A stretch of DNA of 64,000 nucleotides from Oceanimonas pelagia (GTDB lineage: Bacteria > Pseudomonadota > Gammaproteobacteria > Enterobacterales > Aeromonadaceae): positions 2,464,001 to 2,528,000 of the forward strand of contig NZ_CP118224.1 of the NCBI RefSeq assembly GCF_030849025.1, in the 5' to 3' direction. A program made the position numbers and the translations under genes. The notes below the pieces were generated by a model. That model saw only the letters and a program-made list of their open reading frames with translations. It searched no databases and had not been told where the DNA came from. This document shows, one piece after another, positions 25,396 through 50,774 of this stretch. The stretch's first letter is position 1. Every line of letters starts with the position of its first letter.

Positions 25396-25402
25396 AACAA
25401 CC

Positions 25403-28400: not shown

Positions 28401-30472
28401 TACACAAAGGGCAAGAGACCGGAAGCGACCAGGCGTTCACGGGTTACCTCGGGAAGTTCCCCAAAGCTGCAAACGCCTTCTTCGTTTTTCTCGGCGTTAA
28501 TGGCCGACACCAGTTGCAGGTGATACGCCAGCACCAAAGGATGGAAAGGCGAAAACATCAGCTGATGTTCCGGCCTGCACAGGCCTATTTGCATCAACTT
28601 TTTGTGTTCATAAGTCAGCACGGCATGTGGCTCAATGGAGGTCAGGGCTGCCTCATAGGCATCAAGCACTCCTTGAACCAAACTACAGAAATCAGGCCCC
28701 CAGGCCACTAGGCTGGGCAAGGTTTTTGCTCGCTGAAAATAAGAGAAAAGTTCACGGTAAGCAGCATGAAGATCCGGATAGGAGCTGGTAATTGCGCCCA
28801 GTTTGATAGGCTCTCCCACACTGCTGACAGACAGAAGCTCTTCATCTACCATCTGAGATTCGAGATTGAGCAATTTCTGCCTGACTCCGACAGCAGCGCT
28901 CTCTGCGTTGTCAAAGATGATTTTACCTTTAGCCCGGTTATATTCGGCATTACGCTGATCATTCAGCAACTTGCCAAAACGTGCTTGATCAAACAGCAGA
29001 GGAACGGTTATTCCTTCATCGGCAGCCGGACCTTCTACGTTGATCGCCAGCGAGCGCTCTCCGTTTTGCAGGGTAAAAAGTGTCTGCTCGCTATGCTCAG
29101 CCAACATTTCAAAGTCAACCCAGCCAAACTGAGTGCAGTCTACTCCACTGTTGTCATCAGTCAGCCTGCTACAGGCATCTTGCTGTGGGTTTACTCGTAA
29201 ACGGTTTTCTTCAAGCAGCAAGGTCAGCCAGCGCTTTCCTGGCTCCACCCGAAAACGATGAAGAACTTCATCAAAGTAGAAGTCTCCTTCCTCCACCACC
29301 AGGCAGCGCAACTTGTATTCTTCAGCACGATTATCCCGTTTCAGTTCAAGGCTGAAGAAGGCAGGTTCGCCAGTAACAGGAAAAGTAACACCAGCACGGC
29401 AACGCTTTCCTCCTGCACGGCTCACTGTAATCTGAGCCTGCTTTGTGAGAGTGCGATGATGCTTAACCTGAAGCTGGCTTGCTTCCAGATCGTTACCGGT
29501 AAAGGTCAATGAAAGCTGACACTCTTGAGCGCCTGCTGGTTGCACAATAATCAAACTCAGCTCGCGCTGTCCGGCTGTGCTCTGAGACCTGGCCCGTTGA
29601 TGAACCAGGCTTCCATCTACAGAAACTTCTTCCAGCAATAATTTTTGTGCTTTGTTGGCGTCAATTTCCTGAATGAAGGCTTCAAACTCCAGCCTACGCC
29701 AGCTGTCATCCTGAAAGTGCTTGCGAATGAACTTTGAGCTGAACTCTTTAAGCACATGCTCAAGCTGGTCAACATCGTAGTGTTCTACCGCTTCTTCAAT
29801 ATCGCGGCGCAGCTCCCGGTTCTTTTGCAGTCGGTTACTGATTTGCGCTTTATTACCGCTCCAGTTCAGCAAGGCAGGATCGTCCAGCAGATTGAGCTCG
29901 TCGAAGTCGAGGGCACCGTCTTTGTCTATAGCATCGAACAGGGCCTTAAAACCAAATACAGTGGCATCTTCATCTTTAATGACCTTAAGCTGCTCTTCTA
30001 GCAAACAGTAAGAAAGCGCTTTATGAGGACTGTTGATATCAATCAAGCCAGCAAGTTGCTCCGAGAGTACATCCGGATGCCATACGGCACCGGCAGCCCC
30101 CAAATCAAAAGCACTGTTGATCAGGGTGTCGAGCATACTGTTATGAATAACCAGCAGTGCGGTCTGGGAGAAGTCACCACTACGGCTGGCTACCAAATCA
30201 CGCAGGCGGGAAATGTAATTTTCGGTAAACCCCTCATCTCCCTCATCATGCAATACCGGCAATATTCTCACGCCATTGCAGAGCACGTAAGGGAGCTCAA
30301 TGTCATCCTGGGTGTGCAGGCTGCCTTCTTTCTGAGCGAGCAAAGCCCGATACAGTGCCAGACCATTCTCGGCACTGGGCGACTTAAACTGATAGCGGAA
30401 GCCAGGCTCAATATCGTTGGCGACCCATTCGATAAAGGTTTGAGTTAAAAACTGTTCAAAGGGTCTTGCGGA
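25403..30472 (-). CDS. dptH: Phosphorothioation-dependent restriction protein DptH (DndH)
   Basis: A 1,689-residue protein from the ATG at 30472 (M-S-A-R-P-F-E-Q-F; GGAG 9 bp upstream); the longer start at 30496 would overlap dptG further. The large N-terminal part has no recognisable motif. The C-terminal ATPase has Walker A G-T-M-G-T-G-K-T-Q near residue 1350 and Walker B M-I-L-V-D-E-A-D-N-F near residue 1570, of the HerA/FtsK-like translocase type. DptF-DptG-DptH restrict DNA that lacks phosphorothioation. The start overlaps dptG by 17 bp. Confidence 0.95.
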   Translation of the reverse strand, partial: SARPFEQFLTQTFIEWVANDIEPGFRYQFKSPSAENGLALYRALLAQKEGSLHTQDDIELPYVLCNGVRILPVLHDEGDEGFTENYISRLRDLVASRSGDFSQTALLVIHNSMLDTLINSAFDLGAAGAVWHPDVLSEQLAGLIDINSPHKALSYCLLEEQLKVIKDEDATVFGFKALFDAIDKDGALDFDELNLLDDPALLNWSGNKAQISNRLQKNRELRRDIEEAVEHYDVDQLEHVLKEFSSKFIRKHFQDDSWRRLEFEAFIQEIDANKAQKLLLEEVSVDGSLVHQRARSQSTAGQRELSLIIVQPAGAQECQLSLTFTGNDLEASQLQVKHHRTLTKQAQITVSRAGGKRCRAGVTFPVTGEPAFFSLELKRDNRAEEYKLRCLVVEEGDFYFDEVLHRFRVEPGKRWLTLLLEENRLRVNPQQDACSRLTDDNSGVDCTQFGWVDFEMLAEHSEQTLFTLQNGERSLAINVEGPAADEGITVPLLFDQARFGKLLNDQRNAEYNRAKGKIIFDNAESAAVGVRQKLLNLESQMVDEELLSVSSVGEPIKLGAITSSYPDLHAAYRELFSYFQRAKTLPSLVAWGPDFCSLVQGVLDAYEAALTSIEPHAVLTYEHKKLMQIGLCRPEHQLMFSPFHPLVLAYHLQLVSAINAEKNEEGVCSFGELPEVTRERLVASGLLPFVYDNDSGYAHLQPVRENCFWLDVVPQKQESHGYIKRLVRDKLAEFTQAYARLFSAGTKSSLTVNAINQGESDELFLGLIEHFKRHKEQAIAIHVNCYDERLQFNELDRFAETEAYDELKEWLGLNSGALRAEADMLIDVIRSRLTYSKFTLPKGQETFAYAHLAFFRNKEPVECRAIKTDESLSGVLCDGLIAGEAAETLGGAYFTAFGLRGVDYASVQSLRLARLLGNLWQPATQSNAQYLETSMGLAVSASFQSLLERSYDSALWTTIIDPKVTLDFFTRQQDVVLIHYSDQYTSAAGYDAITVTKQIDLFKRLLQKDGHGQGEVLLSEFNAFNGEWLLKMLTSNPKERKEKNGIIGAYKFVSALLGKSDICWVPLSVAEMIRVSGNVGLKMSDSEFSRQVQGYRKGAISDDVLFVGFKDKQLYLMPLEVKTGVRPDYKYAGQQALELKRYLTEEVLGLQTLASRLYRGLFIRQVLMQIDKLCLYGVMNQQQLQPLLAEREWWMRGDYELAMVPDYVEGIVVAHVENDSCFVPSYKTTAEGILQVELPYSLLPALIESKAWESLNDLVSLCHVPAEYCLEARPTKEKPVNAIVELIEETKEGAGKTEDYPEITPSIESGAKEERKPLQVLFGHEAMKKTPLYWEPTNTARFMNTNTGIIGTMGTGKTQFTKSLITQLMREQGNNVNAAPIGLLIFDYKSDYVDDEFSNVNQSNRLRLHRLPYNPLSLYGDMPMLPVHTATGFAETLAKAFGLGPKQQLKLRKLILDAYELAGISKADPSTWQRPAPTLEQVWDLFLEQEKVEEDSLYAALDSLVTYEIFEKKPDAVTSLYDLLEGVTVIELAGYSPQIQNLVVALTIDLFYSQMQKRGKPQIDGDYRQITKMILVDEADNFMSQDFPSLRKILKEGREYGVGVILSTQDLSHFKTGENNYGSYVLTWVVHRVSEIKNADIKAIFNKDDKNEQEQLMETIRKLDKHFSLYIDGDKKVFMMRDKAFWELF

Positions 30473-31772
30473 CATACACGGCGTCTCCACTGTCACTCAT
30501 TCGCTCAACATTTCCCATGCGCTCATAAAAATCTACTAACGCCTGCAGGGTCTGGTTATCAAGATAAAACCCCCGTTGTTCAAAGCCCTTGCGTAGCTCA
30601 TGCAAGCGCAACTTGTCGGCCTTGCCAATGGTCAAGTTGGTCAGCAACAAAACCTGATCCTGGTTAAGTACCAAGGTGCGACCCGCAGCACCACGGGCCT
30701 GAATGAAATCACTGAGCAGTTGCTGCTCCAGCTCCTTAACGTACTTCTTGTTCACGCCACCACGAGTGGTTCTGGCATCACGAAACTGTTCAATCGCCAG
30801 CTCTTTAAGCTGTTCAAAGGCTTCCGATACATCGTGGGCTTCAGCTCTTGGCACCAGCTCTCTTTTTTCAATAAAGGCTTGCAGATAGGTGTTAAGCTCA
30901 TTCAGCAATTTGGGTTGATCGTAATACTCGAGTGCTTCTTGATAGATCTGCCACAGTGGACGGGCCGGTTTTTCCGGAAGTTGCAGTGCATCAAGTGCGG
31001 ACAATAGCGGGAAAACTCGCTCACATGCTGCCGCCAACAACTTGTAACCTGAGCGCTTTACCGAGGTACGCTCCGAACTCGCTTTTTCGGTCTCAAGAAT
31101 AAAGTACAGCGGCCTGCTTTTGGGCTCCTGCCAGTCAGTAATATTCAACGCCAGCTGGGCACAGTAGGAGAAGGCATACAACCTGAGCGTTTTCGGCAGG
31201 GCCTGTAGCAGATACTGAGGATGCTTTGCCAAAAACTCGATATCTTCACGAAATACCTTGTTAAGAAATGGCAGATACGGGTGTTCATCGTTCTCTATTG
31301 CTGTGCCTGGCTGCAAATTTTTCCGTAGCACGGACAGCATTTCCTGCTCTACAAAATTGAGATGATCATCGAGTGCATCCTGCAGAAAAAAGTTCCCCAT
31401 CAGCCCGGCAAAGAGTTTGCACAACCTGAGATCCGGGGCACTGGCATCCAGTCGTCCGCTTTGGCGACCTCTGGCCTTGAACAGCAAGAAAAGCGGCGAA
31501 ATATTATAAAGTGCCTGACTGGAAAAGTAGCTTCGCTCCAGCACAGTCCAGAACTCCGGCTCATCCAGCTTTGCAAAAAAGCGCTGCTTGCAATCTTCCT
31601 GATAGTCTGTCAGCTCATAGGTTTTTACCTGTTTTCGCAGTGCCAGGCTCAGCACAACGCCAGTGATGGTTTCCCAGTCAAAATCATTTCCCTTGTTACG
31701 GATGGGCCAATAATTAGACAGCTTATTCTTATCAGTGGGGGTCAGCCCTTCGGGTAATGGGTATTGATACAT
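30456..31772 (-). CDS. dptG: Phosphorothioation-dependent restriction protein DptG (DndG)
   Basis: A 438-residue protein of usual DptG length and position. Motifs are few: an N-terminal L-S-N-Y-W-P-I-R-N-K-G-N-D-F-D-W-E block and a mostly helical rest. The start lies 2 bp after the dptF stop and the end overlaps dptH, so the three genes are coupled. Identification rests on length, context and the N-terminal block. Confidence 0.9.
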   Translation of the reverse strand: MYQYPLPEGLTPTDKNKLSNYWPIRNKGNDFDWETITGVVLSLALRKQVKTYELTDYQEDCKQRFFAKLDEPEFWTVLERSYFSSQALYNISPLFLLFKARGRQSGRLDASAPDLRLCKLFAGLMGNFFLQDALDDHLNFVEQEMLSVLRKNLQPGTAIENDEHPYLPFLNKVFREDIEFLAKHPQYLLQALPKTLRLYAFSYCAQLALNITDWQEPKSRPLYFILETEKASSERTSVKRSGYKLLAAACERVFPLLSALDALQLPEKPARPLWQIYQEALEYYDQPKLLNELNTYLQAFIEKRELVPRAEAHDVSEAFEQLKELAIEQFRDARTTRGGVNKKYVKELEQQLLSDFIQARGAAGRTLVLNQDQVLLLTNLTIGKADKLRLHELRKGFEQRGFYLDNQTLQALVDFYERMGNVERMSDSGDAVYVRKTL

Positions 31773-31774
31773 TC

Positions 31775-33388
31775 TTAGAATGCTCCCTCAACAGTGATCA
31801 TTCCGTCATCTTGCTCAAGACGATAAACCTTTGCTCCCTCGTAGTATTTTAGGGATGTACTATCTTTAGCCACGGTGCGGATTTGCTCGACCATCTCATC
31901 CAGTAAAATAATGGCGTTCTTGTCGTATTTGTTGGGCCGATAACCGCTGTTGATTTTTGTGATGAGTTCAAAAAGGTTTAGCCCTATCTCCATGGGCCTG
32001 AGAGCTTGCTCACCCACCTTAAGGTAAGCACTAAAACTATCATGTTTTTCAACATGAAGGTTATGAATACTCTTGAAGTCGACTTTTAGATCCAGTGGCG
32101 CCGCCACCTTGCAGCGACCAAATTGCCCAAGTAAAAGCTCACGCTTACCAAGCTCGGTTGCATGACGGTTAGCATAGGTAAAAATTGCTGGGATCAGCTC
32201 CTTCATATAGAAATTTCTGAGTGCAGCCTGCTTTTCTGGTGTACCGTCATACTCACCATGCATAAGCCAGACACTGGCGTAGCGCTCAAGCAGCAGCTCT
32301 TCAAAGTCAGCTCCAAACTGATGGTGGTAATTGTTACCCACCTCACACTTTTTAAGCAGATAAAAGAGGCGCAGCATCGATGCCGCCTGACCATCCCTGG
32401 AGCCGTCATAGCGAATACCCAGCTTACTCAACCCAGCCATAAACTCATCCAGTTCAGGATCTGGTAATGACAGCTCGTAACGAAGAATAAACTGGTCAAT
32501 AGATTGGGTGTGGATTAGTGCAGGATCAAACTCAAGCATTTTCTGGGACAGTTCATTGCTTCCTCCCAGGAAGAGGTTGTCGTACAAAAAAAACTCACCC
32601 GTTAATAGCTGATGCAAGAAATCGAGTAAAGCCCGGGTAGTAATAAACTGATCCTTGATCAGGCGGGTCTTGAACAGTGTTGTGATAATGGCATCTTGCA
32701 CCCTTGGATTACCGAGCAGACGAAAATTAGCTGTTAGCCTCTCGTCTTGCTCGCGCAGCTCATCCTTAGTGGCAATCTCATGGAACGGGTTTTCACCTGA
32801 AGGCTCTGTCAGTCGTTGACAAAGCTGCCGCACAAAGCCGGAGTAACACTCTGACTCATCGTTAAAACGAAATTTGGGATAAGCTTCGAAGTCCAGAAAG
32901 CGGTACTGTCCTTCAGAACGAATACCTTCTTCTAGGAAGCGCTCGATAACAGATCTCAGCTCGATATGCCGTGCATGCCCTTCCTTGGCGTAGTTGGCCA
33001 ACATCCCAATGTTAATGCCAACCACCAGGGGCCGGTTATCTTCAGCTCTTTTATCAAACAGCTCATCAAGCGCTTCAATTGCAGACTGATGTGGTGCAAA
33101 ACTGTGAGTTGCATCCAGATGGAAATGATAACGCTGCTTGTAGCGCTCATAACTGCGTGAAAGGATTTCGGACTTCCCATCACCGCTACTGCCACACAAA
33201 AATACGCACTCTCCTGGCTGCAAAGAGCTGAGTACGCGCTCAAAATCGAGTTCAATGTCTGGCTTGATGTAGAGGTAGTCTTTTAGATCATCGTAAATAT
33301 CTCGTGGCCGCTCGGTCGTAGTTTTAACCGAAAACGGCGAAGATTTCGCCAAGACCCCAAGGGCCTTTCTGAGGGTAACGGAGCTCAT
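31775..33388 (-). CDS. dptF: Phosphorothioation-dependent restriction protein DptF (DndF)
   Basis: The start at 33388 (M-S-S-V-T-L-R-K-A-L) is preferred over 33412 because the family begins near ...A-L-x-V-L-A-K-S-S-P and an AGGA lies about 8 bp upstream; it gives 537 residues. A P-loop C-G-S-S-G-D-G-K-S-E is at about 65-74, so this is an ATPase of the restriction complex. It is the first gene of the minus-strand dptFGH-DUF262 operon. Its upstream region is cut short by the IS903-type element 143 bp away. Confidence 0.95.
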   Translation of the reverse strand: MSSVTLRKALGVLAKSSPFSVKTTTERPRDIYDDLKDYLYIKPDIELDFERVLSSLQPGECVFLCGSSGDGKSEILSRSYERYKQRYHFHLDATHSFAPHQSAIEALDELFDKRAEDNRPLVVGINIGMLANYAKEGHARHIELRSVIERFLEEGIRSEGQYRFLDFEAYPKFRFNDESECYSGFVRQLCQRLTEPSGENPFHEIATKDELREQDERLTANFRLLGNPRVQDAIITTLFKTRLIKDQFITTRALLDFLHQLLTGEFFLYDNLFLGGSNELSQKMLEFDPALIHTQSIDQFILRYELSLPDPELDEFMAGLSKLGIRYDGSRDGQAASMLRLFYLLKKCEVGNNYHHQFGADFEELLLERYASVWLMHGEYDGTPEKQAALRNFYMKELIPAIFTYANRHATELGKRELLLGQFGRCKVAAPLDLKVDFKSIHNLHVEKHDSFSAYLKVGEQALRPMEIGLNLFELITKINSGYRPNKYDKNAIILLDEMVEQIRTVAKDSTSLKYYEGAKVYRLEQDDGMITVEGAF

Positions 33389-33967
33389 GGGAATATCCTG
33401 CCGATCATGCAATTAGAGAATATTAACCATTGAACTCAAAAGAGGCCAGCTCAAGGTGTGTGAAAAACAAGCTATGCACCTTAATATTAATTTTCGCTCC
33501 AACTTGCTTTCATAGATTGTTGGGTATAGACGGCGTTGTTTCCTAAATCAGTGAACTATCTGTCCTACCCATGATCTGATCATCTGACGAACGGAATCGG
33601 AGGCAGACCGATGGGCAAAGCACGACACAACATCAGCAACTGGCGGCAGTACAACCGGGCCTTGGTCAATCGCGGTTCACTAACCTTCTGGATCGATGAG
33701 CAAGCCATCAAGCAATGGAATTGCCATCAGCCATGGCCGCCGCGGGCGTGGCTTCCACTACAGTGATAGTGCCATTGAAACGGCACTGATGCTCAAGGCT
33801 TTCTTCGGCTTGCCGTTACGGGCGCTGGAAGGGTTCATCAACTCCATTTTTCAGCTGATGGATGTGCCACTGATCTCGCTTGGTTACAGCAGTATCAGCA
33901 AACGCGCCCAGACCGTGAACGTAAAGTACCGCTTGCCCAGCAAGGCAGAAACGGCGATGTGTAGTGG

Positions 33968-37264: not shown

Positions 37265-38116
37265 ATGGCCAGGAAGGCAAACAGGCAACGGGGCCTGACC
37301 ACGGTGGAGTATGCCCTTGCCGGCGCCCTGGTGGGAGGCATGGTGGCGGCCAGCTTTGCCGGTCTGGGCAATACCCTGGGCGACACGGTGCAGGATCTCG
37401 CCCAGGCGGTGAAGCAAATCGGCCCGGGCAACGATAACAACACCGGCAGCCATGCCGGTGGTTCCGCCACGGCCGGCAACGGCGGCGGTGACTCCGGCAC
37501 AGGCAGTAATTCCGGCAACAATGGCGACACGACCACGGGCGGCAGCAACGGCAGCAATGGCGGCGCTACCACGGGCGGCAACACCGGCAACAATGGCGGC
37601 ATTACCACAGGCGGCAGCACCGGCAGCAATGGCGACACGACCACGGGCGGCAGCAACGGCAACAATGGCGGCGCCACCACGGGCGGAAGCACGAGCAGCG
37701 GCGGTGGTAGCAGTACCGCAGCAAACAATCCCACCGGTGGAGGCTCCGGCGGCGGCAACACCACCACGAGTAATAATGTCGGCAGCCATGCGGCGGGCGA
37801 CAATTCCGCCGGCGATGGCTCAGGCAGCACTGCCGGCAGTGGCAGCACCGCCGCAGGCTCTGCCCTGAGTACGAATGGCGATGCCGGTGGCGAAGATGCC
37901 GCCAGAAAGCAAACCACAGCCCTGCTGGCGGCCAACACCGGCAGCACCGGCGCTCCGAGGGAGCAAGCCGGCAGCACCAGCGCACAAGGCAAAGCCCCCA
38001 CCTCACCGGCTCAACATGAACGGCCACACTGGCTGTGGTGGCTGTTGCCACTGCTGGCGGCCTGGCTTTTCTGGCGCCGGCCCAGGAAAAAGCACAGCGA
38101 CGCCTCCGCTTCCTGA
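37265..38116 (+). CDS. Flp-pilin-like protein with Gly/Thr/Asn repeats and C-terminal membrane anchor
   Basis: A 283-residue protein. Residues ~8-34 (R-G-L-T-T-V-E-Y-A-L-A-G-A-L-V-G-G-M) look like the class IVb prepilin (Flp) start: Gly before the cleavage site, Glu at +5 and a hydrophobic helix. A long low-complexity region of Gly, Thr, Asn and Ser follows, containing 12-residue repeats. The C-terminus is W-L-W-W-L-L-P-L-L-A-A-W-L-F-W followed by R-R-P-R-K-K, like a tripartite sorting or anchor signal, but without LPXTG, PEP or GlyGly motifs. It is probably a surface or periplasmic protein with membrane segments at both ends. No family is certain. Confidence 0.7.
   Translation: MARKANRQRGLTTVEYALAGALVGGMVAASFAGLGNTLGDTVQDLAQAVKQIGPGNDNNTGSHAGGSATAGNGGGDSGTGSNSGNNGDTTTGGSNGSNGGATTGGNTGNNGGITTGGSTGSNGDTTTGGSNGNNGGATTGGSTSSGGGSSTAANNPTGGGSGGGNTTTSNNVGSHAAGDNSAGDGSGSTAGSGSTAAGSALSTNGDAGGEDAARKQTTALLAANTGSTGAPREQAGSTSAQGKAPTSPAQHERPHWLWWLLPLLAAWLFWRRPRKKHSDASAS
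37523..37702 (+). repeat. 36-bp coding tandem repeat, about five units
   Basis: Five consecutive units start GGCGACACGACCACGGGCGG or variants of it, each 36 bp (12 residues of the form G-x-T-T-T-G-G-S-x-G-x-N). The last unit is divergent. The repeat lies within the Flp-like gene, so it is in-frame and could vary in copy number. Confidence 0.85.
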
Positions 38117-38134: not shown

Positions 38135-38186
38135 TGCAAAATGCACACGGGCTGATGAATCTGCCGGCCCCAGTGCATTTTGCACA
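38135..38186. promoter_or_regulatory. Paired operator upstream of the sulfotransferase gene
   Basis: TGCA-AAA-TGCACA at 38135-38147 and TGCA-TTT-TGCACA at 38174-38186 are 39 bp apart, with a further TGCACA half-site at 38193-38198. The same motif recurs at 43735, 43776 and 49117. Each site is upstream of a sigma-54-type promoter, as expected for activator-binding sites. Confidence 0.7.
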
Positions 38187-38272
38187 GGCAAGTGCACACC
38201 GCCGCTTTTACTTCACCAGAGCACTTGCTGCTCATCTTGCCCAAGACCCCGCCACCGCCGGTATGGCGGTCA

Positions 38273-38289
38273 CTGGCACGGGGCTTGCT
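38273..38289 (+). promoter_or_regulatory. Sigma-54 promoter for the sulfotransferase gene
   Basis: CTGGCACG-GGGC-TTGCT matches the sigma-54 consensus YTGGCACG-N4-TTGCW at every fixed position. It lies 47 bp before the ATG at 38336 and 87 bp after the nearer operator. Confidence 0.8.
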
Positions 38290-38335
38290 GTGCATTCTGC
38301 TGAACCATTATGTTCACGAATGACAGGAGGTCTTC

Positions 38336-38998
38336 ATGCTTATCAACGATCACGACGGCTGGGTGTTTATTCACAACCCCAAGTGCGCCGGCACCACGGT
38401 GCGCCAGAGCCTGATGCAATATGAAACCCGGAACGATTATTACTGGCTGTTCGACATGCTTGACGGTCGTCAGATCGACAAGGCCCACCTGCCGCTGGCG
38501 CTGCTGAAACGCTACGCGCCGTCCGACTTTGCGCTGTTGTCTGACTACCGGGTGTTTGGCTTTGTGCGGGATCCCGTTACCCGCATGGTGTCGTCCTACA
38601 ACGAAAGCCACCCGCGCATCTACCAGAAATTCAGCCAGGGCCGGCTGTCGCTGGATGACTATCGCCAGGGGCTGAACCAGTTTTGTTACGGCCTTGAAGC
38701 TCAGGCGCTGAAGGGCTGGGACTTCGACTACCGGCATTGCATTCCCCAGCGTGACATGTTTTATCTGCGCGGCAAATGCTATGCCGATGTGCTGATCAAA
38801 ATGGAGAGCCTGGAGCGGCAGGTAAACAAGCTGGCGGCCATCGATCACCGCCTGCCTGCTGCCCTGGTGCTGAAAAACAAGCGGGCCAACAGCAAAACCC
38901 TGCCGGTGGCACACAACGAGCTGCTCGACCAAAAGGCCCTCGCCAGTGTGAAAGCCATTTATCACGACGACTTTGTGCTGTTCGATTATGTGCACTGA
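38336..38998 (+). CDS. Sulfotransferase family 2 protein
   Basis: 220 residues. The 5'-phosphosulfate-binding loop H-N-P-K-C-A-G-T-T-V-R is at 13-23, and the 3'-phosphate motif F-G-F-V-R-D-P-V-T-R-M-V-S-S-Y is near residues 75-89. These are typical of PAPS-dependent carbohydrate sulfotransferases (family 2). It would transfer sulfate to a sugar hydroxyl in the cytoplasm or at the membrane. It is a single-gene unit in front of the sensor kinase, with its own sigma-54 promoter and operators of the same type as the polysaccharide operons, so sulfation of that polysaccharide is a reasonable inference. Confidence 0.85.
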   Translation: MLINDHDGWVFIHNPKCAGTTVRQSLMQYETRNDYYWLFDMLDGRQIDKAHLPLALLKRYAPSDFALLSDYRVFGFVRDPVTRMVSSYNESHPRIYQKFSQGRLSLDDYRQGLNQFCYGLEAQALKGWDFDYRHCIPQRDMFYLRGKCYADVLIKMESLERQVNKLAAIDHRLPAALVLKNKRANSKTLPVAHNELLDQKALASVKAIYHDDFVLFDYVH

Positions 38999-39079: not shown

Positions 39080-39268
39080 ATGAAAGTCATCATAAAAACA
39101 TTGTTTTTACTGTATCTGCCCGGCCCGTCGGTGCCGAGCCAGCCGGAGCGGGAAGCCGGTGCCCGCCTCGTGTTTGGCCCCGCCCCGACATTCCCTCCTT
39201 GGAACACCGGAACGACGAGCGCGGGCTCGATATTCGGCTTGCCCCTGGCATCACGGAAGAGGAGGGCA
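39080..39268 (+). pseudogene. Possible remnant of a PhnD-like substrate-binding protein
   Basis: An ATG at 39080 begins a signal-peptide-like start (M-K-V-I-I-K-T-L-F-L-L-Y-L), followed by A-R-L-V-F-G-P-A-P-T-F-P-P-W. A one-base shift would continue with L-E-H-R-N-D-E-R-G-L-D-I-R-L-A-P-G-I. This resembles the start of phosphonate-type substrate-binding proteins often paired with sensor kinases. The frame is broken and the rest is missing. The reading is tentative. Confidence 0.3.
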
Positions 39269-39270
39269 GC

Positions 39271-42200
39271 ATGTCCTTTCGCCTGAAAACCATGCTCGGT
39301 GTGGCCCTGATCGTGGGCAGCCTGTTGTTGCTGCTGATATGGAGCAGCCTTCGCTATCTGCAGGACGCCAGCCACCAGGAGGCCGTTCTGCGTGCCGAAA
39401 CCACCTCAAGCCTGTTTGCAGAACTGGTGCGGGAGGCGGTGCTGGCGTCCGATCTGGCCCGGCTGGAAAGCCTGGCCAGCCAGGCGCTGGCGGCCTCCGA
39501 CATGGCCTATGTGCGCATTATGGACAACGAGCAATGGCTGGTGGAAGCCGGCGATACCGCCGCGCGCGGGACTATGGTTCACGCCGGAGCCGATGTACTG
39601 GTGAATGACCGGCGCTACGGCCGGGTGGAGCTGGGCCTTCGCACCGAGCGGGCAGAAGGCGTGATTGCCGGTGCCCGGCACCACCTGCTGTTGCTGGCCG
39701 CCGGCGGAATGATACTGGTGGCACTGTTCTCCCTGGCGCTGGGCGCCTGCCTCACCCGGGGCCTGAGCCGGCTCACTCAGGCCGCCGAAGCCATCAGCCG
39801 GGGGGAGGATCCCGCGCCCATCGCGGTCAGTGGCAACGGCGAGCTGGCCATTACCAGCCGGGCCTTTAACACCATGGCCGAACAACTGACCCGCTCCCGC
39901 CGGGACATGGAGGAACGGCTGCAGATAAGACAGGAGTCCCGCCGCCATGCCGCCATCAGCGCCGCCCTGGTTGAGGCCAACATGGATGCGGTAGTGATCA
40001 TCGATCTGGACGACACCATAGTGGAGTTCAGCAGCATGGCGGAAAAGCTGTTTGGCTACACCCGCGCCGAGGCCATTGGCCGCTCCATGGCCGAGCTGCT
40101 GATCCCGCCCGAAGTGCGGGATCATCACCGCCGGGGCATGCAGCATTATCGCGATACCGGCCACGGCCCCATTCTGGGCAAGCACATCGAGCTGGACGCC
40201 ATGCGTGCCGGGGGCGAGCTGTTTCCGGCGGAGCTGACGGTACAGACCATTCAGCTTGAGGGCTCGGTGCTGTTTGCCGGCTTTATGCGCGACATCAGCG
40301 AGCGCAAGGCCGCCGAGCAGGCACTGAAGGATGCCCGGGTGCGCGCCGAGGCCGCGTCCCGGGCCAAGTCCCGTTTTCTGGCCCACATGAGCCATGAAAT
40401 ACGATCACCCCTCAACGCCGTGCTGGGCTCGGTCAGCCTGCTGCTGGAAGACAAACTCACCCGGGAGCAGCGGCTCTATGCCCAGACCGCCGAATCGTCG
40501 GGCAAGGCACTGCTGGGGCTGATCAACAATATTCTCGACTTTTCCCGCATCGAGGCCGGCCAGCTGCAGCCCGACAAACAACAGTTTCGGCTGGACGAGC
40601 TGCTGTCGGACATCGCCGCCCATATCGCCCTTTGCGCCCGGGAAAAACAGCTGCAAACCGCGCTGATCGCCGAGCCCGGGCTGCCCGTGCAACTGACTGG
40701 CGATGCCACCCGGCTGCGGCAAATTCTGATCAACCTGCTCGACAACGCCCTCAAGTTTACCGACACCGGCGCGGTCAGCCTGCTGATCACCCTGGAAGCC
40801 AAAACCAACAATGGCGTGGAGCTCGCCTTTACCGTGCAGGACAGCGGCATCGGCATACCTGCCGAGGAGCAATCCGCCCTGTTTGAGGAGTTTCAGCAGG
40901 TGGACAGCTCCGACTCCACCCGCCACGGCGGCAGCGGCCTGGGGCTGTCCATCAGCCGGGGGCTGTGCCGGGCCATGGGCGGCGAGCTGGTGTTTGCCCA
41001 CGCCAGCCAGGCCGGCTCCGTGTTTGTGGCCACCCTGCCACTTGAGTACGCCGGGCCGGTACCTGCGGTGCCCCAGCACGGCGGCATAGTGCTGTGTGCC
41101 GGGCTGCACCCGCTGCTGCTCAATGCCGTGCGCCTCGCCTGCCAGCCCAGGGGTATGAGCGTGGCCGAATGGCGCCCCGACGAACCCCTGCCCGCAGCGG
41201 GAGAACAGGCCATGGCGCTGCTGCTGCACCATGATCTGCCGGCACCGGCACGGAGCTCTCTGCTGACCCAGGCCGCTCAGCAGGGCCTTGAACACATTAT
41301 TGAACTGGGCCGGGAAGACGCCTCGCCCCTTGAACCGGCCATAACCGACCGGCTGCCCCTGCCCCTGCTGGCCGGCCCCCTGCTGCGCCGGCTGGGGCGG
41401 GAGCGCAGCAGGCCGGCGCAGGCCGTGCCGGCAGACACCTTCCCGTCGGCATCTGCTCCACAGCAAGGCGGCCGGTTACTGCTGGCGGAAGACAGCCCGG
41501 CCAATCAGCTGGTGGCCCGGGCCATGCTGGAGCGGGCCGGTTATCGGGTGACCATTGCCAACAACGGCCTGGAAGCCCTCGAGGCCTGTGCCCGCCAGCC
41601 CTTTGACCTGATCCTGATGGACCTGCGCATGCCGCAAATGGACGGGCTGGAAGCCACCCGGCGCCTGCGCACGCAAAGCAGCATGGCTCAGGTGCCCATA
41701 GTGGCGCTGACCGCCAATGTCAGCCAGCAGGACATAGAGCGCTGCCTGGCCGCCGGCATGGATGACTTTATTCCCAAACCCATCAACAGCGAACGGTTGC
41801 TGGCAACCCTGGTCCGGCATCTGTCACCCGGCACTCGGCAGGCCGGGGCAGGCACCTCCCCCGCACCGGTGGAGCCCCCCCGGCCACTGCCGCTGCTGGA
41901 CGAGGCGGCGGTACACAGCCTGTTCGAGGCCATGGGCGCCGATCGTTTTGCCGGCACCATGGGACTGTTTCTTGATGAAAACCGCGAGCGGCTGGCACGG
42001 CTGGAGCAGGCCATTGCCCGGCAGGACATGGAATCGGCCACCCTTGAAGCCCATACCATCAAGGGCTGTGCCGGCACCTTTGGTGCGCCGCAACTGCAGG
42101 ACTGGGCCAGGCAAATGGAAGCCGCCTGCCGCAGCCAGGATGACACAAGCATCCATCGGCTGGCGGCGCACATTGACGCCCTCGGCCGCCAGACCGAAAC

Positions 42201-42297
42201 CCGGTTTCAGCATCAAATCACGTCGCTGACAGGAGAGCAGCATGACTCAGAGAGCACTCAAGGAACGCCCCCGGCAGGCGCGCATTCTGCTGGTTGA
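39271..42297 (+). CDS. Hybrid sensor histidine kinase (HAMP-PAS-HisKA-HATPase-REC-Hpt), SypF-like
   Basis: The start at 39271 has GGAGG 5 bp upstream; it gives 1,008 residues. In order: a membrane segment (~9-26), a periplasmic loop, a second membrane segment (~135-160), HAMP, PAS (~230-350), HisKA with H375 in M-S-H-E-I-R-S-P-L-N, HATPase with L-L-D-N-A-L-K-F-T-D and G-G-S-G-L-G-L-S-I, REC with D784 in L-M-D-L-R-M-P, and Hpt with H928 in A-H-T-I-K-G-C-A-G. The domain order resembles RscS/SypF kinases that control syp polysaccharide. Its 3' end overlaps the response-regulator gene by 56 bp, so the two are surely partners. Confidence 0.95.
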   Translation: MSFRLKTMLGVALIVGSLLLLLIWSSLRYLQDASHQEAVLRAETTSSLFAELVREAVLASDLARLESLASQALAASDMAYVRIMDNEQWLVEAGDTAARGTMVHAGADVLVNDRRYGRVELGLRTERAEGVIAGARHHLLLLAAGGMILVALFSLALGACLTRGLSRLTQAAEAISRGEDPAPIAVSGNGELAITSRAFNTMAEQLTRSRRDMEERLQIRQESRRHAAISAALVEANMDAVVIIDLDDTIVEFSSMAEKLFGYTRAEAIGRSMAELLIPPEVRDHHRRGMQHYRDTGHGPILGKHIELDAMRAGGELFPAELTVQTIQLEGSVLFAGFMRDISERKAAEQALKDARVRAEAASRAKSRFLAHMSHEIRSPLNAVLGSVSLLLEDKLTREQRLYAQTAESSGKALLGLINNILDFSRIEAGQLQPDKQQFRLDELLSDIAAHIALCAREKQLQTALIAEPGLPVQLTGDATRLRQILINLLDNALKFTDTGAVSLLITLEAKTNNGVELAFTVQDSGIGIPAEEQSALFEEFQQVDSSDSTRHGGSGLGLSISRGLCRAMGGELVFAHASQAGSVFVATLPLEYAGPVPAVPQHGGIVLCAGLHPLLLNAVRLACQPRGMSVAEWRPDEPLPAAGEQAMALLLHHDLPAPARSSLLTQAAQQGLEHIIELGREDASPLEPAITDRLPLPLLAGPLLRRLGRERSRPAQAVPADTFPSASAPQQGGRLLLAEDSPANQLVARAMLERAGYRVTIANNGLEALEACARQPFDLILMDLRMPQMDGLEATRRLRTQSSMAQVPIVALTANVSQQDIERCLAAGMDDFIPKPINSERLLATLVRHLSPGTRQAGAGTSPAPVEPPRPLPLLDEAAVHSLFEAMGADRFAGTMGLFLDENRERLARLEQAIARQDMESATLEAHTIKGCAGTFGAPQLQDWARQMEAACRSQDDTSIHRLAAHIDALGRQTETRFQHQITSLTGEQHDSESTQGTPPAGAHSAG

Positions 42298-43723
42298 AGA
42301 CAGTCCGGCCATGGCCGCCGTGTATCAGAGCTATCTGGAGGCGGAGCAGCACAGTGTGCGCGTGGCCGGCACCGGCGCCGCGGCGCTGTCCGAGCTGAAC
42401 GAGGCCCTGCCGGATCTGGTGCTGCTCGACCTGCACCTGCCGGACATGCCGGGCATGGCCATTTTGCAGCACATTCACGACCACGCCCTTCATTGCGCCG
42501 TGGTGATCATCACCGCCCATGGCTCCCTCGATATTGCCAGCGAAGCCATGCGCCTGGGCGCCAGCGATTTTGTCAGCAAGCCCTTTGACGCCGCCCGCCT
42601 CAACCTGACCGTGGCCAACACCCTGGAAAAACGCCACCTCAGCCGGGTGGTGAACCAGTACCGGCGCACCTTCACCCGCAACCGCTTTCACGGCTTTATC
42701 GGCTCATCTCTGGCCATGCAGGCGGTGTTCCGCATTATTGAAAGCGCCGCTCCCAGCAAGGCCACTGTGTTTATTACCGGTGAAAGCGGCACCGGCAAGG
42801 AGCTGTGCGCCGAGGCCATTCATCAGGAAAGCCCCCGCCGCAAGGGCCCGCTGGTGGCGCTGAACTGCGCCGCCATTCCCGCCGATTTGATGGAAAGCGA
42901 GATCTTCGGCCATGTCAAAGGGGCCTTTACCGGTGCCGTGAGCCAGCGGGAAGGCGCCGCCAGCCGGGCCGACGGTGGTACCCTGTTTCTGGATGAAGTG
43001 TGCGAAATGGACCTGGATCTGCAAAGCAAGCTGCTGCGCTTTATTCAGAGCCGGCGCTATACCCGGGTGGGCGACAACAAGGAGCAACAGGCAGACATTC
43101 GCATTGTGTGTGCCACCAACCGGGATCCGCTGGAAGAAGTGCGCGCCGGCCGCTTTCGGGAAGATCTCTACTACCGGCTGAACGTCATTCCCCTGCCGCT
43201 GCCGCCCCTGCGGGAGCGCGGCGACGACATTCTGCTGATTGCCGAGCACCTGCTGGAAACCATGGTGGAAGAAGAGCAAAAAAGCTTTCGCGGTTTCAGC
43301 GAGGCCGCCGCCGATGCCCTGCTTGGCTACGACTGGCCCGGCAATGTGCGCGAGCTGGAAAACGTGCTGCGCAACATGGTGGTGCTGAACGAGGGCACCC
43401 TGCTCGACACCCCCATGCTGCCCGCGCACCTGCAGACATCGGTCGGTGCGACAGTCAGTGCGGTGCCACCGGCTCTGCCCGCCGCTCCCGTCGTCCCTTA
43501 CGCGCCGGCGGTGACCGGTGAGCCGCCTGCCGCCCTGACCATACAGCCGGAAGACCAGGCCATGGCCGGCATTCGCCCGCTGTGGCTGCAGGAAAAGGAG
43601 ATCATCGAGCGCAGCATACGGCTGTGCGACGGCAACATTCCCCGCGCCGCCGCCCTGCTGGAGATCAGCCCTTCCACCATTTACCGCAAGCGCATGGGCT
43701 GGGAGAAAATGCAGGAGCAATAA
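42242..43723 (+). CDS. Sigma-54-dependent response regulator, SypG/NtrC-like
   Basis: 493 residues: REC domain with D63 (L-L-D-L-H-L-P), AAA+ domain with Walker A G-E-S-G-T-G-K-E (180-187), the sigma-54 contact loop G-A-F-T-G-A (227-232) and Walker B-type G-G-T-L-F-L-D-E, then an Ala/Pro-rich linker and a C-terminal Fis-type helix-turn-helix (A-A-A-L-L-E-I-S-P-S-T-I-Y-R-K). It would bind enhancer sites and activate the three -24/-12 promoters of this locus. AGGAG precedes the ATG, within the end of the kinase gene. Confidence 0.95.
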   Translation: MTQRALKERPRQARILLVEDSPAMAAVYQSYLEAEQHSVRVAGTGAAALSELNEALPDLVLLDLHLPDMPGMAILQHIHDHALHCAVVIITAHGSLDIASEAMRLGASDFVSKPFDAARLNLTVANTLEKRHLSRVVNQYRRTFTRNRFHGFIGSSLAMQAVFRIIESAAPSKATVFITGESGTGKELCAEAIHQESPRRKGPLVALNCAAIPADLMESEIFGHVKGAFTGAVSQREGAASRADGGTLFLDEVCEMDLDLQSKLLRFIQSRRYTRVGDNKEQQADIRIVCATNRDPLEEVRAGRFREDLYYRLNVIPLPLPPLRERGDDILLIAEHLLETMVEEEQKSFRGFSEAAADALLGYDWPGNVRELENVLRNMVVLNEGTLLDTPMLPAHLQTSVGATVSAVPPALPAAPVVPYAPAVTGEPPAALTIQPEDQAMAGIRPLWLQEKEIIERSIRLCDGNIPRAAALLEISPSTIYRKRMGWEKMQEQ

Positions 43724-43734: not shown

Positions 43735-43788
43735 TGCATATTGCACAGGCCCCTTCACAGCCCGCTCAGGCGGGCTGCAAAATGCACA
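43735..43788. promoter_or_regulatory. Paired operator upstream of the STAS-wza operon
   Basis: TGCA-TAT-TGCACA at 43735-43747 and TGCA-AAA-TGCACA at 43776-43788 are 41 bp apart. Between them CAGCCCGC-TCAG-GCGGGCTG (43758-43777) forms a hairpin that could terminate the regulator transcript and that runs into the second operator. Confidence 0.7.
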
Positions 43789-43838: not shown

Positions 43839-43855
43839 CTGGCACCGTTTCTGCA
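43839..43855 (+). promoter_or_regulatory. Sigma-54 promoter for the STAS-wza operon
   Basis: CTGGCACC-GTTT-CTGCA keeps the essential GG and GC elements with correct spacing. It lies 34 bp before the STAS gene and 51 bp after the nearer operator. Confidence 0.75.
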
Positions 43856-43888: not shown

Positions 43889-44224
43889 ATGTTAGTAGCC
43901 CATCAGCAGCAAGGATGCCGCAGCCTGATCACCCTGCCCGCCCGCATGGACCGGGCCCGGGCACCCGCCCTGCGCCGGCAGCTTCAGCAGTTTATCGAAC
44001 AGGGGCAGCGCCATCTGGTGCTGGATCTGCATCAGGTGCAGTTTGTGGATGCCAGTGGCCTGTCGGTGCTGCTCAGCGCCTATTTTGCCCTGCAGCCTCA
44101 CGGCGGCCGGCTGGTCTTGCTGAGCCCCTCGCCCCTGATGCGCACTCATCTGGTTACCGCCCGGCTACACCGGCTGTTTGCGGTGTATGACAGTGCCGAA
44201 TCCGCCCTTGCCGCTCAGGACTGA
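43889..44224 (+). CDS. STAS domain protein (SypA-like anti-sigma-antagonist fold)
   Basis: The start at ATG 43889 has AAGGAG 8 bp upstream; the product has 111 residues. The STAS core carries V-D-A-S-G-L-S-V-L-L with Ser56 at the usual phosphorylation position. In the V. fischeri syp locus the first gene encodes such a STAS protein, whose phosphorylation state controls biofilm output. No SypE-like kinase/phosphatase was seen here, so how Ser56 would be modified is open. It is the first gene of the export operon. Confidence 0.85.
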   Translation: MLVAHQQQGCRSLITLPARMDRARAPALRRQLQQFIEQGQRHLVLDLHQVQFVDASGLSVLLSAYFALQPHGGRLVLLSPSPLMRTHLVTARLHRLFAVYDSAESALAAQD

Positions 44225-44236: not shown

Positions 44237-45391
44237 ATGCTAAAGCCCCTTGATTTTCTGCCCCTGCTGACGCTGCTGGGAGCCTGCACCCCGCTGCATC
44301 AGGTGCATATCAATCAGCAGCCGCCGGCGGCCATTGAGGCCGGCCGGGAGCACCCACTGGGCCCGGGCCGGAGTACGCCGATAGCTGCGGCTCAATCACT
44401 GCCACTCACGCCACTGCCCCGCTGGGCCGCCGCGCCGCCGCTGTCGCCGGGCGACCGGCTGCAGATTGAAGTGGTCGACGGCGAGGACTTCAGCGGCCGT
44501 TTTGAAGTGAACACCAACGGCACCCTGACCCTGCCCTTTTTGCCGCCGCTGGCGGTGGCCGGAGGCAGCCTGCAGGACGCCGAAAAGCAAATTGCCGAGG
44601 CCCTGGTGGCGGAGCGCTTTTTTCGCCCGCAGCGGGTGGAAGTGAGCCTGCGCCTGCACGAGTGGGGCCATGCCCAGGTGCATGTGAGCGGTGCCGTATT
44701 TAACCCGGGTATGGTCACGGTGAACGCCCGGGGCGTGGAAGAGCGGGCCCTGAAGGACAGGCTGAGCACCGGCGACTTTGCCTCGGAGCGGCTGCTGGCC
44801 ACCGCCCTGCGCGCCGCCGGCGGTGTGCGCCCCGATGCGGACCTGAGCCGCATTCGGCTTACCCGCGGCGAGCAGACCCTGGTGCTCGACTACCGCCCCC
44901 TGCTGCAGGGCCGGGCGGTACGCCAGGTAGCGCTGATGAGCGGCGATGTGATTGAGGTGCCGGAAAGCGGCCGCTTTCAGCGGGACCTGATGACATTGTC
45001 GCCGATCACGCCGCCGGGCATTCGCGTGTTTCTCTCCAACCTCACCGTGCCCGCCACCGGCAACGCCATTTCGGCGGTGGGCCGGGACGCCAGCAGCCTG
45101 CCCTACGGCGCCCGCCTGCTTACCGCCGGCACCTCCGCCAACTGTCTGGGCGGTACCCGCCTGACCAACGCGGATCGCTATCTGGTGCTGGTGCGCACCG
45201 ATCCGCTCACCGGTCAGCCCCAGACCCTGGAACGCTCGGTGCAGGAGCTGCTGGCGGCCCCTCAGCGGGATGATCTCAACCCTTACCTGATGCCCAACGA
45301 TGCCGTCAGCTGCTACGACTCGGGAGTGACCAACCTGCGGGATCTGGCCCGTACCCTGACCGAGCTGCTGCTGCCGCTGTCGCTGCTGTAA
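44237..45391 (+). CDS. Polysaccharide export lipoprotein, Wza-like
   Basis: 384 residues with a lipoprotein signal (lipobox L-L-G-A-C, Cys17). A poly-export domain follows (L-S-P-G-D-R-L-Q-I-E-V ... F-E-V-N-T-N-G-T-L-T-L-P-F-L), then SLBB-like repeats (V-H-V-S-G-A-V-F-N-P-G-M-V-T-V). Wza-type proteins form the outer-membrane polysaccharide channel. It is close to the STAS gene (12-bp gap) and to the Wzz-like gene (11-bp gap). The C-terminal part is longer than in minimal Wza and ends in a hydrophobic helix. Confidence 0.92.
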   Translation: MLKPLDFLPLLTLLGACTPLHQVHINQQPPAAIEAGREHPLGPGRSTPIAAAQSLPLTPLPRWAAAPPLSPGDRLQIEVVDGEDFSGRFEVNTNGTLTLPFLPPLAVAGGSLQDAEKQIAEALVAERFFRPQRVEVSLRLHEWGHAQVHVSGAVFNPGMVTVNARGVEERALKDRLSTGDFASERLLATALRAAGGVRPDADLSRIRLTRGEQTLVLDYRPLLQGRAVRQVALMSGDVIEVPESGRFQRDLMTLSPITPPGIRVFLSNLTVPATGNAISAVGRDASSLPYGARLLTAGTSANCLGGTRLTNADRYLVLVRTDPLTGQPQTLERSVQELLAAPQRDDLNPYLMPNDAVSCYDSGVTNLRDLARTLTELLLPLSLL

Positions 45392-45402
45392 CCGGAGCCG
45401 CC

Positions 45403-46818
45403 ATGAGCCACGATACCGCCGCTTTCACCCCTACCGCCGGTCAGCGCCTGTTGCGCATGCTGACCCACGGCACCAGCCTGCCCACCGCGGCCCGGCTGCG
45501 GCTCTATGCCCTGGTGGCGGCGGTGGCTCTGGCCATGATCTGGCTGCCCTTTACCCTGTTTATGTGGGTCAAGCCGGTGTCGTTCACCAGCAACTGGATC
45601 CTGATTCTGCCCGGTACCGGTGCCGGCTATGCGGTGTCCCTCGACAGCGTGGGCCAGGCCTCGGCCTCGGCCACCTCGCCCTACAACAGCCATTCGGTCG
45701 ATCCACGCGTCAACTACAAGGCCATTGCCACCAGCGCCCCTGTGCTGGATGCCGCCGCCGCCGACGTCGGCCTGAGCCGGGCTCAGTTTGGCAAGCCCGA
45801 CATCAGGCTGGTGGATCAGACCGCGCTGATGAAGTTCCGGCTGTCGGCTCCCAGCGCCGGACTGGCACTGCGCAAGGCCGAGGCGCTGGACCGCGCCCTG
45901 CAGCAAGAGCTGGAGCGGCTGCGCCGGGATGAGTTCAGCCAGCGCGAGCACAGCCTGGATACCATGCTCAACGACTTCAGCAGCAAGCTGGGCCAGGCCC
46001 GCCAGCGCATTCTGGAATACCAGTCCGGGGCGCGCATTGTGTCGCTGGAGCAGTTCAACGAGCTGACTCTGTCTTTGGAGCGCATGCGCGGTCAGTTGCG
46101 TGAACTCAAGGCCAGTGCCGCCGGGGTGGACGGTCGCCGCCGGGCGCTGCAGCAGGCGCTGGCCATCGACGCCCGCCAGGCCGCCGAGCTGCTTACCCTG
46201 CAGCAGGACGTGCTGTTCCGGGAGCTGGCCACCGCCTGGGCCGCGGCCGCCACCGAGCTCAAACGCAACCTCACTCACTGGGGCGAGCGCCACCGCAAGG
46301 TGGTGGCGGCCCGGGACGAAGAGCGCCAGCTGCGCCGGGCCATGCACCGGCGGGTAAAGCAACTGGCCCCCAGCCTGCCCCAGGACGAAGACCGCTTGCT
46401 GTCCCGGGTGACCGACAACATTGCTCTTTATAGCCAGCTGGTGGAGCTGATGGTGGAAAGCCAGGGCCTGAACGCCCAGATTGCCGCCCTCGGCCACAGC
46501 ATTGACGAGCAGCAGCAACTGCTGGAGCAAAGCACCCAGGAGGCCAGCCTGCTGGAAGATCTCAAGCGCAAGCATCAGGTGGCCACCGCCGTGTTTGGCA
46601 CGGGTCTGGCCAAGCTGGATATCGGCAAGGGCGACAAGTTCAGCGCCTATCCCATGACCCAGTTGCTGTCGCCGCCCTCGCGGCCGGACCGGCCCGATAC
46701 CCTTGGGCGCAACCTGGCCCTGCTGGGCTGCGGAGCCGCTTCACTGTTCATTTTTCTTGGTCTGGTGTTGCTATGGATACGCAAACCCTATCTCCAGAAA
46801 CATCTGAAGAACGCCTGA
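45403..46818 (+). CDS. Wzz/PCP-type chain-length or export co-polymerase, no kinase domain
   Basis: 471 residues with a first membrane segment at ~27-52 and a second near 440-462. Between them is a long periplasmic coiled-coil region (about residues 150-390, rich in Glu, Arg, Leu and Gln). This is the polysaccharide co-polymerase layout that sets chain length and contacts the Wza channel. No Walker motifs or tyrosine-rich tail follow, so any kinase would be separate. It overlaps the downstream ligase/polymerase gene by 46 bp. Confidence 0.85.
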   Translation: MSHDTAAFTPTAGQRLLRMLTHGTSLPTAARLRLYALVAAVALAMIWLPFTLFMWVKPVSFTSNWILILPGTGAGYAVSLDSVGQASASATSPYNSHSVDPRVNYKAIATSAPVLDAAAADVGLSRAQFGKPDIRLVDQTALMKFRLSAPSAGLALRKAEALDRALQQELERLRRDEFSQREHSLDTMLNDFSSKLGQARQRILEYQSGARIVSLEQFNELTLSLERMRGQLRELKASAAGVDGRRRALQQALAIDARQAAELLTLQQDVLFRELATAWAAAATELKRNLTHWGERHRKVVAARDEERQLRRAMHRRVKQLAPSLPQDEDRLLSRVTDNIALYSQLVELMVESQGLNAQIAALGHSIDEQQQLLEQSTQEASLLEDLKRKHQVATAVFGTGLAKLDIGKGDKFSAYPMTQLLSPPSRPDRPDTLGRNLALLGCGAASLFIFLGLVLLWIRKPYLQKHLKNA

Positions 46819-48056
46819 TCTGGCACAGCATACGGCTGACCTACGGCTTCTATGTGCTGGGTGCCGTCTACCTGGTGGCACCGGTGCTGGCCTGGTCGCT
46901 GCTGCTGGCCCAGTGCTGGAAGCTGCTGCGCCGGCCCCAGCCCCTGCCAGGCCTGAGTGCTTTGCCGGTGGCCATTCGCTGGTGGCTGGGCGGCATGCTG
47001 CTGATGCTGGTGGCGCTGGTAGTGGGCCATCTGCAACAACAGCTGGGCATGACCCAGCTTATCAAGTCGACCATCGGCTGGGCCAAGGGCTGGGCGCTGC
47101 TGGCGGTGTTTCCGCTGCTGGGCTGCCTGAACATTCGCCCGGCCATTGTGTACCGGGCCTGCATGCATGTGTGCCTGCATACCCTGCTGCTGCTGCCGGT
47201 GTTTGTGGGCGCCTGGCTGGTGGGGCTGCCGCAAACCCTGTATGTGTCGCCGCTGCAGGCGGTAGGCGGCCCGGGGCCGGAGTTTTTTGCGGTCAGCCTG
47301 TATGAAATCGACCCGGGCAGCGGCCTGCCCCGCTGGCGGCTGTTTACCCCCTGGGCGCCGGCGCTGGGCTTTATGGCCAATATCTTTTTTGTGTTTGCGC
47401 TGCAGGAGCAAAGCCGGCGCTGGCAGGCCATTGGCATCAGCGCCAGTGTGCTGATGGCGCTGATGTCGGCGTCACGGCTGGCGCTGGTGGCGATGCTCAG
47501 CATCTGGATCATCAGCGGCGTAATAAGCCGGCTGCGTTCGCCGCTCACGCCCTTTGTGGCCGCCGCCGGCTGCACGGTATTGGGCCTGCTGGGGCACCCG
47601 CTGCTGACCGCCGCCGAGCAGTTCTGGCAGTCGTTTCGCAGCGCCCGCGCCGGCTCCACCCGGGTACGGGAAACCCTGGCCCGCATCGCCCTCGACCGCT
47701 GGCAGGCGGAAGCCTTTACCTGGGGCCACGGCGTGGTGGAGCGGGGCCCGCATCTGGTGGAATTTATGCCCATCGGCTCCCACCACAGCTGGTATGGCCT
47801 GCTGTTCGTCAAGGGGCTGGTGGGTGCCCTGGCGCTGGCCGGCCCGCTGCTGCTGAGCCTGCTGCAGCTGGCCTGGTGGAGCGGTGTGCTGCCCCTGGCC
47901 CGGGTGGGCCTGGCCATGGGCCTGCTGCTGTTGATGTACACCTTTGGCGAGAACCTGGAAATTCTCGCCTATCTGATCTGGCCGGCCCTGCTGATCATCG
48001 GCAGGGCGCATCACGGCATTGTTTATGCAAAATCTTCATTACTTCACCCCTCATAA
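46773..48056 (+). CDS. O-antigen ligase/polymerase family protein (Wzy-like)
   Basis: 427 residues with about 10-12 membrane segments. A large loop near residue 300-340 (T-W-G-H-G-V-V-E-R-G-P ... G-S-H-H-S-W-Y-G-L) has the G-S-H-N/H-x-x-Y/W-like signature of Wzy_C/O-antigen ligase proteins. It probably polymerises or ligates the repeat unit in the periplasm. The start lies inside the co-polymerase gene, and no other start is better supported. Confidence 0.85.
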   Translation: MDTQTLSPETSEERLIWHSIRLTYGFYVLGAVYLVAPVLAWSLLLAQCWKLLRRPQPLPGLSALPVAIRWWLGGMLLMLVALVVGHLQQQLGMTQLIKSTIGWAKGWALLAVFPLLGCLNIRPAIVYRACMHVCLHTLLLLPVFVGAWLVGLPQTLYVSPLQAVGGPGPEFFAVSLYEIDPGSGLPRWRLFTPWAPALGFMANIFFVFALQEQSRRWQAIGISASVLMALMSASRLALVAMLSIWIISGVISRLRSPLTPFVAAAGCTVLGLLGHPLLTAAEQFWQSFRSARAGSTRVRETLARIALDRWQAEAFTWGHGVVERGPHLVEFMPIGSHHSWYGLLFVKGLVGALALAGPLLLSLLQLAWWSGVLPLARVGLAMGLLLLMYTFGENLEILAYLIWPALLIIGRAHHGIVYAKSSLLHPS

Positions 48057-48066
48057 GGAAGCCATT

Positions 48067-50758: not shown

Positions 50759-50774
50759 GCGCAAGGAGAACATC

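Follow-up and report, generated by a model that had tools for sequence, protein, structure and literature searches.

Two questions are raised by a sulfotransferase gene (ST) beside an exopolysaccharide locus: is it under the regulator of that locus, and what does its product sulfate? The gene lies in the window, by which we mean the whole 64-kb stretch of DNA analysed here (2.46-2.53 Mb of the genome). Our reading, to which we give a probability of roughly 0.6, is that ST heads the operon of the response regulator, is co-regulated with the neighbouring polysaccharide operons, and sulfates the polysaccharide of the locus. The features on which the argument draws are listed here.

38135-38145, plus strand: distal operator TGCAAAATGCA, then C; aligns with an identical operator in Oceanimonas marisflavi
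38174-38184, minus strand: proximal operator TGCAAAATGCA (GTGCATTTTGCAC on the plus strand); kept in O. marisflavi
38274-38289, plus strand: sigma-54 promoter TGGCACGGGGCTTGCT (-24/-12), exact consensus; aligns with TGGCATGGTACTTGCT in O. marisflavi
38336-38998, plus strand: ST, Sulfotransfer_2 family, intact open reading frame of 220 aa with a PF03567 match and conserved PAPS motifs
39081-39270, plus strand: decayed remnant of a gene for a PhnD-like periplasmic substrate-binding protein; O. marisflavi has this gene intact, between ST and the kinase
39271-42297, plus strand: SypF-like hybrid histidine kinase, HAMP-PAS-HisKA-HATPase-REC-Hpt; 69% identical in O. marisflavi
42242-43723, plus strand: sigma-54-dependent response regulator, SypG/LuxO-like
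43735-43786, plus strand: two operators, TGCATATTGCA (43735) and TGCAAAATGCA (43776), ahead of the polysaccharide operon; O. marisflavi retains both
43840-43855, plus strand: sigma-54 promoter TGGCACCGTTTCTGCA of the polysaccharide operon
43889-44224, plus strand: STAS-domain protein, SypA-like (TIGR00377, 3.2e-17)
44237-49098, plus strand: Wza-type export (44237), chain-length-like (45403), polymerase-like (46773) and GT2 glycosyltransferase (48019) genes
49117-49127, plus strand: operator TGCAAATTGCA of the third unit; TGCAATATGCA at the equivalent place in O. marisflavi
49222-49237, plus strand: sigma-54 promoter TGGCACGGCATTCGCA of the third unit
49277-53466, plus strand: WecG/sugar-transferase fusion (49277), nucleotidyltransferase-like (50775) and Wzx flippase (52033) genes

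The ST protein matches the PF03567 Sulfotransfer_2 profile with E=3.6e-16 (60.5 bits; cut-off 22), and the alignment is full-length, spanning residues 2-218 of the protein and positions 4-251 of the 252 in the profile. Its 5'-phosphosulfate loop reads HNPKCAGTT, its 3'-phosphate motif, of the RDP..R..S type, is FVRDPVTRMVSSY, and the residues H13, P15, K16, G19, R78, P80 and S86 are invariant in an alignment of ten homologues. The profile match and the PAPS motifs bear out the proposal of an earlier note on this DNA that a PAPS-dependent sulfotransferase is encoded here. The sequence AGGAGGT (38325-38331) lies upstream of the ST start at 38336. One other PF03567 protein is encoded in the genome, at 1852480, no PF00685 sulfotransferase was found in the genome, and a search for phage relatives of ST returned none. 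Sequence and profile searches of the PDB gave no significant match; the best, to a heparan sulfate 3-O-sulfotransferase (E=0.07-0.09), is confined to some 50-60 residues surrounding the RDP motif and is no guide to the substrate. A structure model built from two orthologue sequences had a mean pLDDT of 40.6, too low for use in a fold search. PAPS synthesis genes, a hallmark of sulfated polysaccharide clusters (PMC11641403), are not in the ST locus; the genome has two APS kinase genes, at 1.41 and 1.87 Mb, so that the supply of PAPS is assured. As part of the best explanation, ST is predicted to be a cytoplasmic PAPS-dependent carbohydrate sulfotransferase.

The sigma-54 site at 38274 is the sole exact match to TGGCAC-N5-TTGCW within the window, and the description of this promoter as the best of the locus holds, as does the claim that its operators are of the same type, TGCAWWWTGCA, as those upstream of the sigma-54 sites at 43840 and 49222. 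In pattern searches of the 3,592,406-base genome, TGCAAANTGCA was found 8 times, with 5 of these copies (38135, 38174, 43776, 49117 and 52532) inside 14.4 kb at the locus; the chance of finding five of the eight in some 14.4-kb stretch is ~7e-8. The copy at 52532 is not counted as a functional site because it is coding sequence inside the Wzx gene, where it is conserved as such and probably coincidental, and when only the four intergenic operators are used the chance is ~8e-6. The occurrence of two TGCAN3TGCA motifs in the 219-bp spacer upstream of ST has a probability of ~0.25% under a Markov model. Both of these operators and the sigma-54 site align across the two species; the O. marisflavi spacer, which retains the sigma-54 site and three operators, has otherwise diverged.

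ST had been described as a lone gene, forming a unit by itself. This is probably wrong, because ST, the PhnD-like gene, the kinase and the response regulator are collinear and in one direction in O. marisflavi, the window keeps a remnant of the PhnD-like gene, and no terminator-like site was found on the plus strand downstream of ST, where the spacer folds no better than shuffled sequences. The remnant aligns to the N-terminal part of the PhnD-like protein, and the intact O. marisflavi gene is 53% identical to that of a relative, G726. Most likely, ST heads a regulatory operon ST-(PhnD remnant)-kinase-regulator, with cotranscription predicted from this gene order. In G726, an operator and a sigma-54 site in the same layout lie upstream of the PhnD-kinase-regulator operon; in the four other relatives inspected the operator, the sigma-54 site or both are not clear in that orientation (clear in 1/5). 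An economical reading would be that a regulatory operon which already activated itself acquired ST as its leading gene. Given the decay of the PhnD-like gene (39081-39270), the sensor input of the kinase in the window strain may have changed.

The locus downstream has the hallmarks of the syp/rbd/scv type, namely a hybrid kinase, a SypG-like sigma-54 regulator and STAS, Wza, GT2, sugar-transferase and Wzx genes, and by its gene content and the published description (PMC8941931) we class it as syp/rbd/scv-like. The polymerase-like gene at 46773 has no family match and was assigned from its position and hydrophobicity. A tblastn search of the window for a SypE-like phosphatase or an RsbW-like kinase found no homologue, only matches to receiver domains; SypE is not obligatory, because the scv locus of V. 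parahaemolyticus is also without it (PMC8941931). Homologues of the locus genes occur in 8 genera of the order, and relatives of the polymerase-like gene in 21 of 394 order genomes, including two Oceanimonas-type genomes. At 20 other such loci (19 and that of G245), no sulfotransferase was detected with tblastn, using six sulfotransferases, or with the profile search, in retrieved flanking sequence of up to 20 kb, which contig ends shortened in several cases; the profile search did recover the copies in the window, in O. marisflavi and in the O-antigen-type cluster. Since these 20 loci are without a detected sulfotransferase, sulfation is evidently not needed by this polymer type. G358 was rejected as a further comparable locus, as it resembles only the sugar-transferase fusion.

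The earlier note had proposed a search of related genomes for co-occurrence of ST with the locus. Of 23 congeneric genomes, two (the window genome and O. marisflavi) have both ST and the polymerase-like gene and the other 21 have neither, a pattern that amounts to little more than one event because the two positives may be sister species. At the thresholds used, ST was found in no other of the 75 family genomes and in 0 of 368 other genomes of the class. The view that ST and the polysaccharide genes share a regulatory context only was therefore too weak, since they are also present or missing together. In O. marisflavi 102-Na3 (G047), the gene order equals that of the window, FAN1-pilin-ST-kinase-regulator-STAS-Wza and on to Wzx. 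Between the regulator and the STAS gene, O. marisflavi also encodes on the minus strand (G047:C64:100475-102280) a receiver-EAL-like protein absent from the window, a possible c-di-GMP phosphodiesterase as judged from its translation.

The genome also encodes a LuxO paralog, 58% identical to the response regulator in the window. LuxO and SypG act through TTGCAWWWTGCAA, the LuxO consensus (PMC10162802), to which two sites outside the locus, at 828293 and 1887700, conform. The outer bases of this consensus were not found at the locus, whose intergenic sites all have C as their outer 3' base; counting both species, 11 of 11 intergenic operators are TGCAWWWTGCA followed by C. This constant C, set against TTGCAWWWTGCAA elsewhere in a genome with a LuxO paralog, suggests that the locus operators belong to the locus regulator; the paralog could share them. 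The regulatory link of ST to the polysaccharide regulator, as claimed originally, is well supported by the operator statistics, phylogenetic footprinting and co-occurrence, with the operators predicted to be occupied by that regulator. One of the two LuxO-type boxes lies upstream of a small H-NS-like gene, and an Rfam search found no Qrr RNA near the two sites or the LuxO gene.

As to the substrate, all seven distant plasmid relatives of ST (Rhodobacterales, 21-29% identical) are in polysaccharide or glycan clusters, where their neighbours are glycosyltransferases, flippases, export genes or UDP-galactopyranose mutase, and cysND is near two of the seven. These contexts, together with the shared regulator, make the neighbouring polysaccharide the likeliest acceptor. 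With ST apparently under the same switch as the biofilm polysaccharide, the latter is probably sulfated when made. The suggestion that the exopolysaccharide is sulfated thus remains the best reading, favoured by the plasmid relatives and by a genome that makes PAPS, with the polymer as the presumed substrate. In the model that we favour, ST would open the transcript ST-(PhnD remnant)-kinase-regulator. The SypG/LuxO-like regulator, once phosphorylated, would occupy the operator pair that lies ~100 and 140 bp before the promoter and so stimulate the sigma-54 polymerase at 38274. The same regulator would switch on the STAS-Wza and WecG-sugar-transferase operons, such that sulfation and polymer synthesis would begin together while the regulator reinforces itself. 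The target of ST would be the repeat unit of the syp/scv-type polysaccharide that the neighbouring operons produce, with the sulfate probably being added to the lipid-linked unit before Wzx flips it out. A more elaborate version, in which a biofilm polysaccharide of the syp/scv type is sulfated intracellularly, the enzyme having been captured into the lead position of the regulator's own self-activating operon, and in which divergence of the operators at the outer base keeps the locus regulator and the LuxO paralog apart, is offered tentatively, and we would rate it somewhat below an even chance.

The ST might instead sulfate a different surface glycan, O-antigen or another envelope glycan, and be merely co-induced with the biofilm programme. 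Relatives of this family are found in varied glycan clusters, and the genome does have an O-antigen-type cluster at 1.852-1.870 Mb; that cluster (1.852-1.871 Mb) has a PF03567 gene (1852480), a CysNC gene and a CysQ-like gene of its own, however, and the window ST is never found without the syp-like locus, so we consider this reading unlikely, if worth keeping in mind. It is improbable that ST makes a sulfated signal or ligand read by the PhnD-like sensor and the kinase, as part of a sensory module and not of polymer synthesis. While ST directly precedes PhnD-kinase-regulator in O. marisflavi, the window genome lost PhnD yet kept ST, relatives with PhnD-kinase-regulator have no ST, and the distant relatives of ST are in polysaccharide clusters.

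The gene at 37265-38116, immediately upstream of ST in both species, encodes a pilin-like protein of Ser/Thr/Asn-rich low complexity that might, as protein or glycoprotein, be what ST sulfates; yet it is without an operator or sigma-54 promoter of its own, the repeats of its product are very different between the two species, and the plasmid relatives of ST have glycosyltransferases as neighbours, all of which makes protein sulfation very doubtful. Alternatively, the operator and promoter may belong to the regulatory operon, with ST a passenger at its head that has no role linked to the polymer. The promoter position may indeed be inherited, as G726 has an operator and a sigma-54 site before PhnD-kinase-regulator, and the overall GC of ST is 56.9% against 63-67% for its neighbours, though at third codon positions its GC (76%) is unremarkable. 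Against this, ST is intact and 88% identical between the window genome and O. marisflavi while the adjacent PhnD-like gene decayed in one of them, and the ST promoter was retained, with three operators in O. marisflavi; there is little chance that ST is such a passenger. The preferred reading remains that ST modifies the polysaccharide of its own locus.

Several other observations were made along the way. The pilin-like protein (37265-38116) has a pilin-like N-terminus that is 81% identical in O. marisflavi, a long Gly/Ser/Asn/Thr low-complexity middle and a hydrophobic-basic C-terminal tail, and matches no family above cut-off. The PF03567 sulfotransferase, CysNC fusion and CysQ-like gene at 1852480-1870935 suggest a separately sulfated glycan. 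An island at 15640-33412, with DndB (GC 47.5%), a PAPS-reductase-domain protein, an AAA protein and a GmrSD-type restriction protein, is a defence system of the DNA phosphorothioation type. Downstream of the polysaccharide locus, open reading frames of equal length (322 aa) at 54049-55017 and 58594-59562 flank an aldehyde dehydrogenase region, and that at 54049-55017 is an IS1595-type transposase.

Sulfated polysaccharides are valued, and genetically defined bacterial producers are few. If our reading is true, the locus would show in compact form how a single regulator starts both a polymer and its sulfation, in a locus type known from host and surface colonisation, and would be a readable example of a modifying enzyme recruited to an existing regulon by entry at the promoter of the regulator. 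Loci of the syp/rbd/scv type have been reported from 28 genera, and in the scv of V. parahaemolyticus the sigma-54 regulator ScvE was experimentally shown to activate its own locus (PMC8941931); our literature search found no paper mentioning both a sulfotransferase and the syp locus.

The Oceanimonas locus resembles syp (Aliivibrio fischeri), rbd (V. vulnificus) and scv (V. parahaemolyticus) in its hybrid kinase with Hpt, SypG/LuxO-like sigma-54 regulator, STAS protein, Wza-type export, GT2, sugar transferase and several sigma-54 promoters activated together, but differs in that a sulfotransferase probably heads the regulatory operon and that the locus yielded neither a SypE-like phosphatase nor an RsbW-like kinase. 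With LuxO-qrr of Vibrionaceae, where SypG and LuxO can share sites (PMC10162802), it has in common the operator core TGCAWWWTGCA and sigma-54, whereas every intergenic operator of the locus has the 3' outer C (TGCAWWWTGCAC) and the LuxO consensus is TTGCAWWWTGCAA. The sulfated capsules of Vibrio sp. KMM 8419 (PMC11641403) and Cobetia marina KMM 1449 (PMC11766843), in which sulfation of the polymer was chemically proven, likewise come from polysaccharide clusters with a sulfotransferase; those are capsules of the ABC-transporter type, whose clusters include the PAPS-synthesis genes, while the Oceanimonas locus looks Wzx/Wzy-type and has its PAPS genes elsewhere. In the xss cluster for synechan, a sulfated exopolysaccharide of Synechocystis, a dedicated regulator jointly controls glycosyltransferase and sulfotransferase genes (PMC13125312). 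This is the common control envisaged here, although XssQ, the direct regulator, is cyanobacteria-specific and not a sigma-54 response regulator, and the phylum is a different one. Given these documented capsules and exopolysaccharides (PMC11641403, PMC11766843, PMC13125312), the rarity that the earlier note ascribed to sulfated bacterial exopolysaccharides is only relative. Sulfated bacterial polysaccharides being already known, a sulfotransferase at the head of the regulator operon is a new arrangement of familiar parts.
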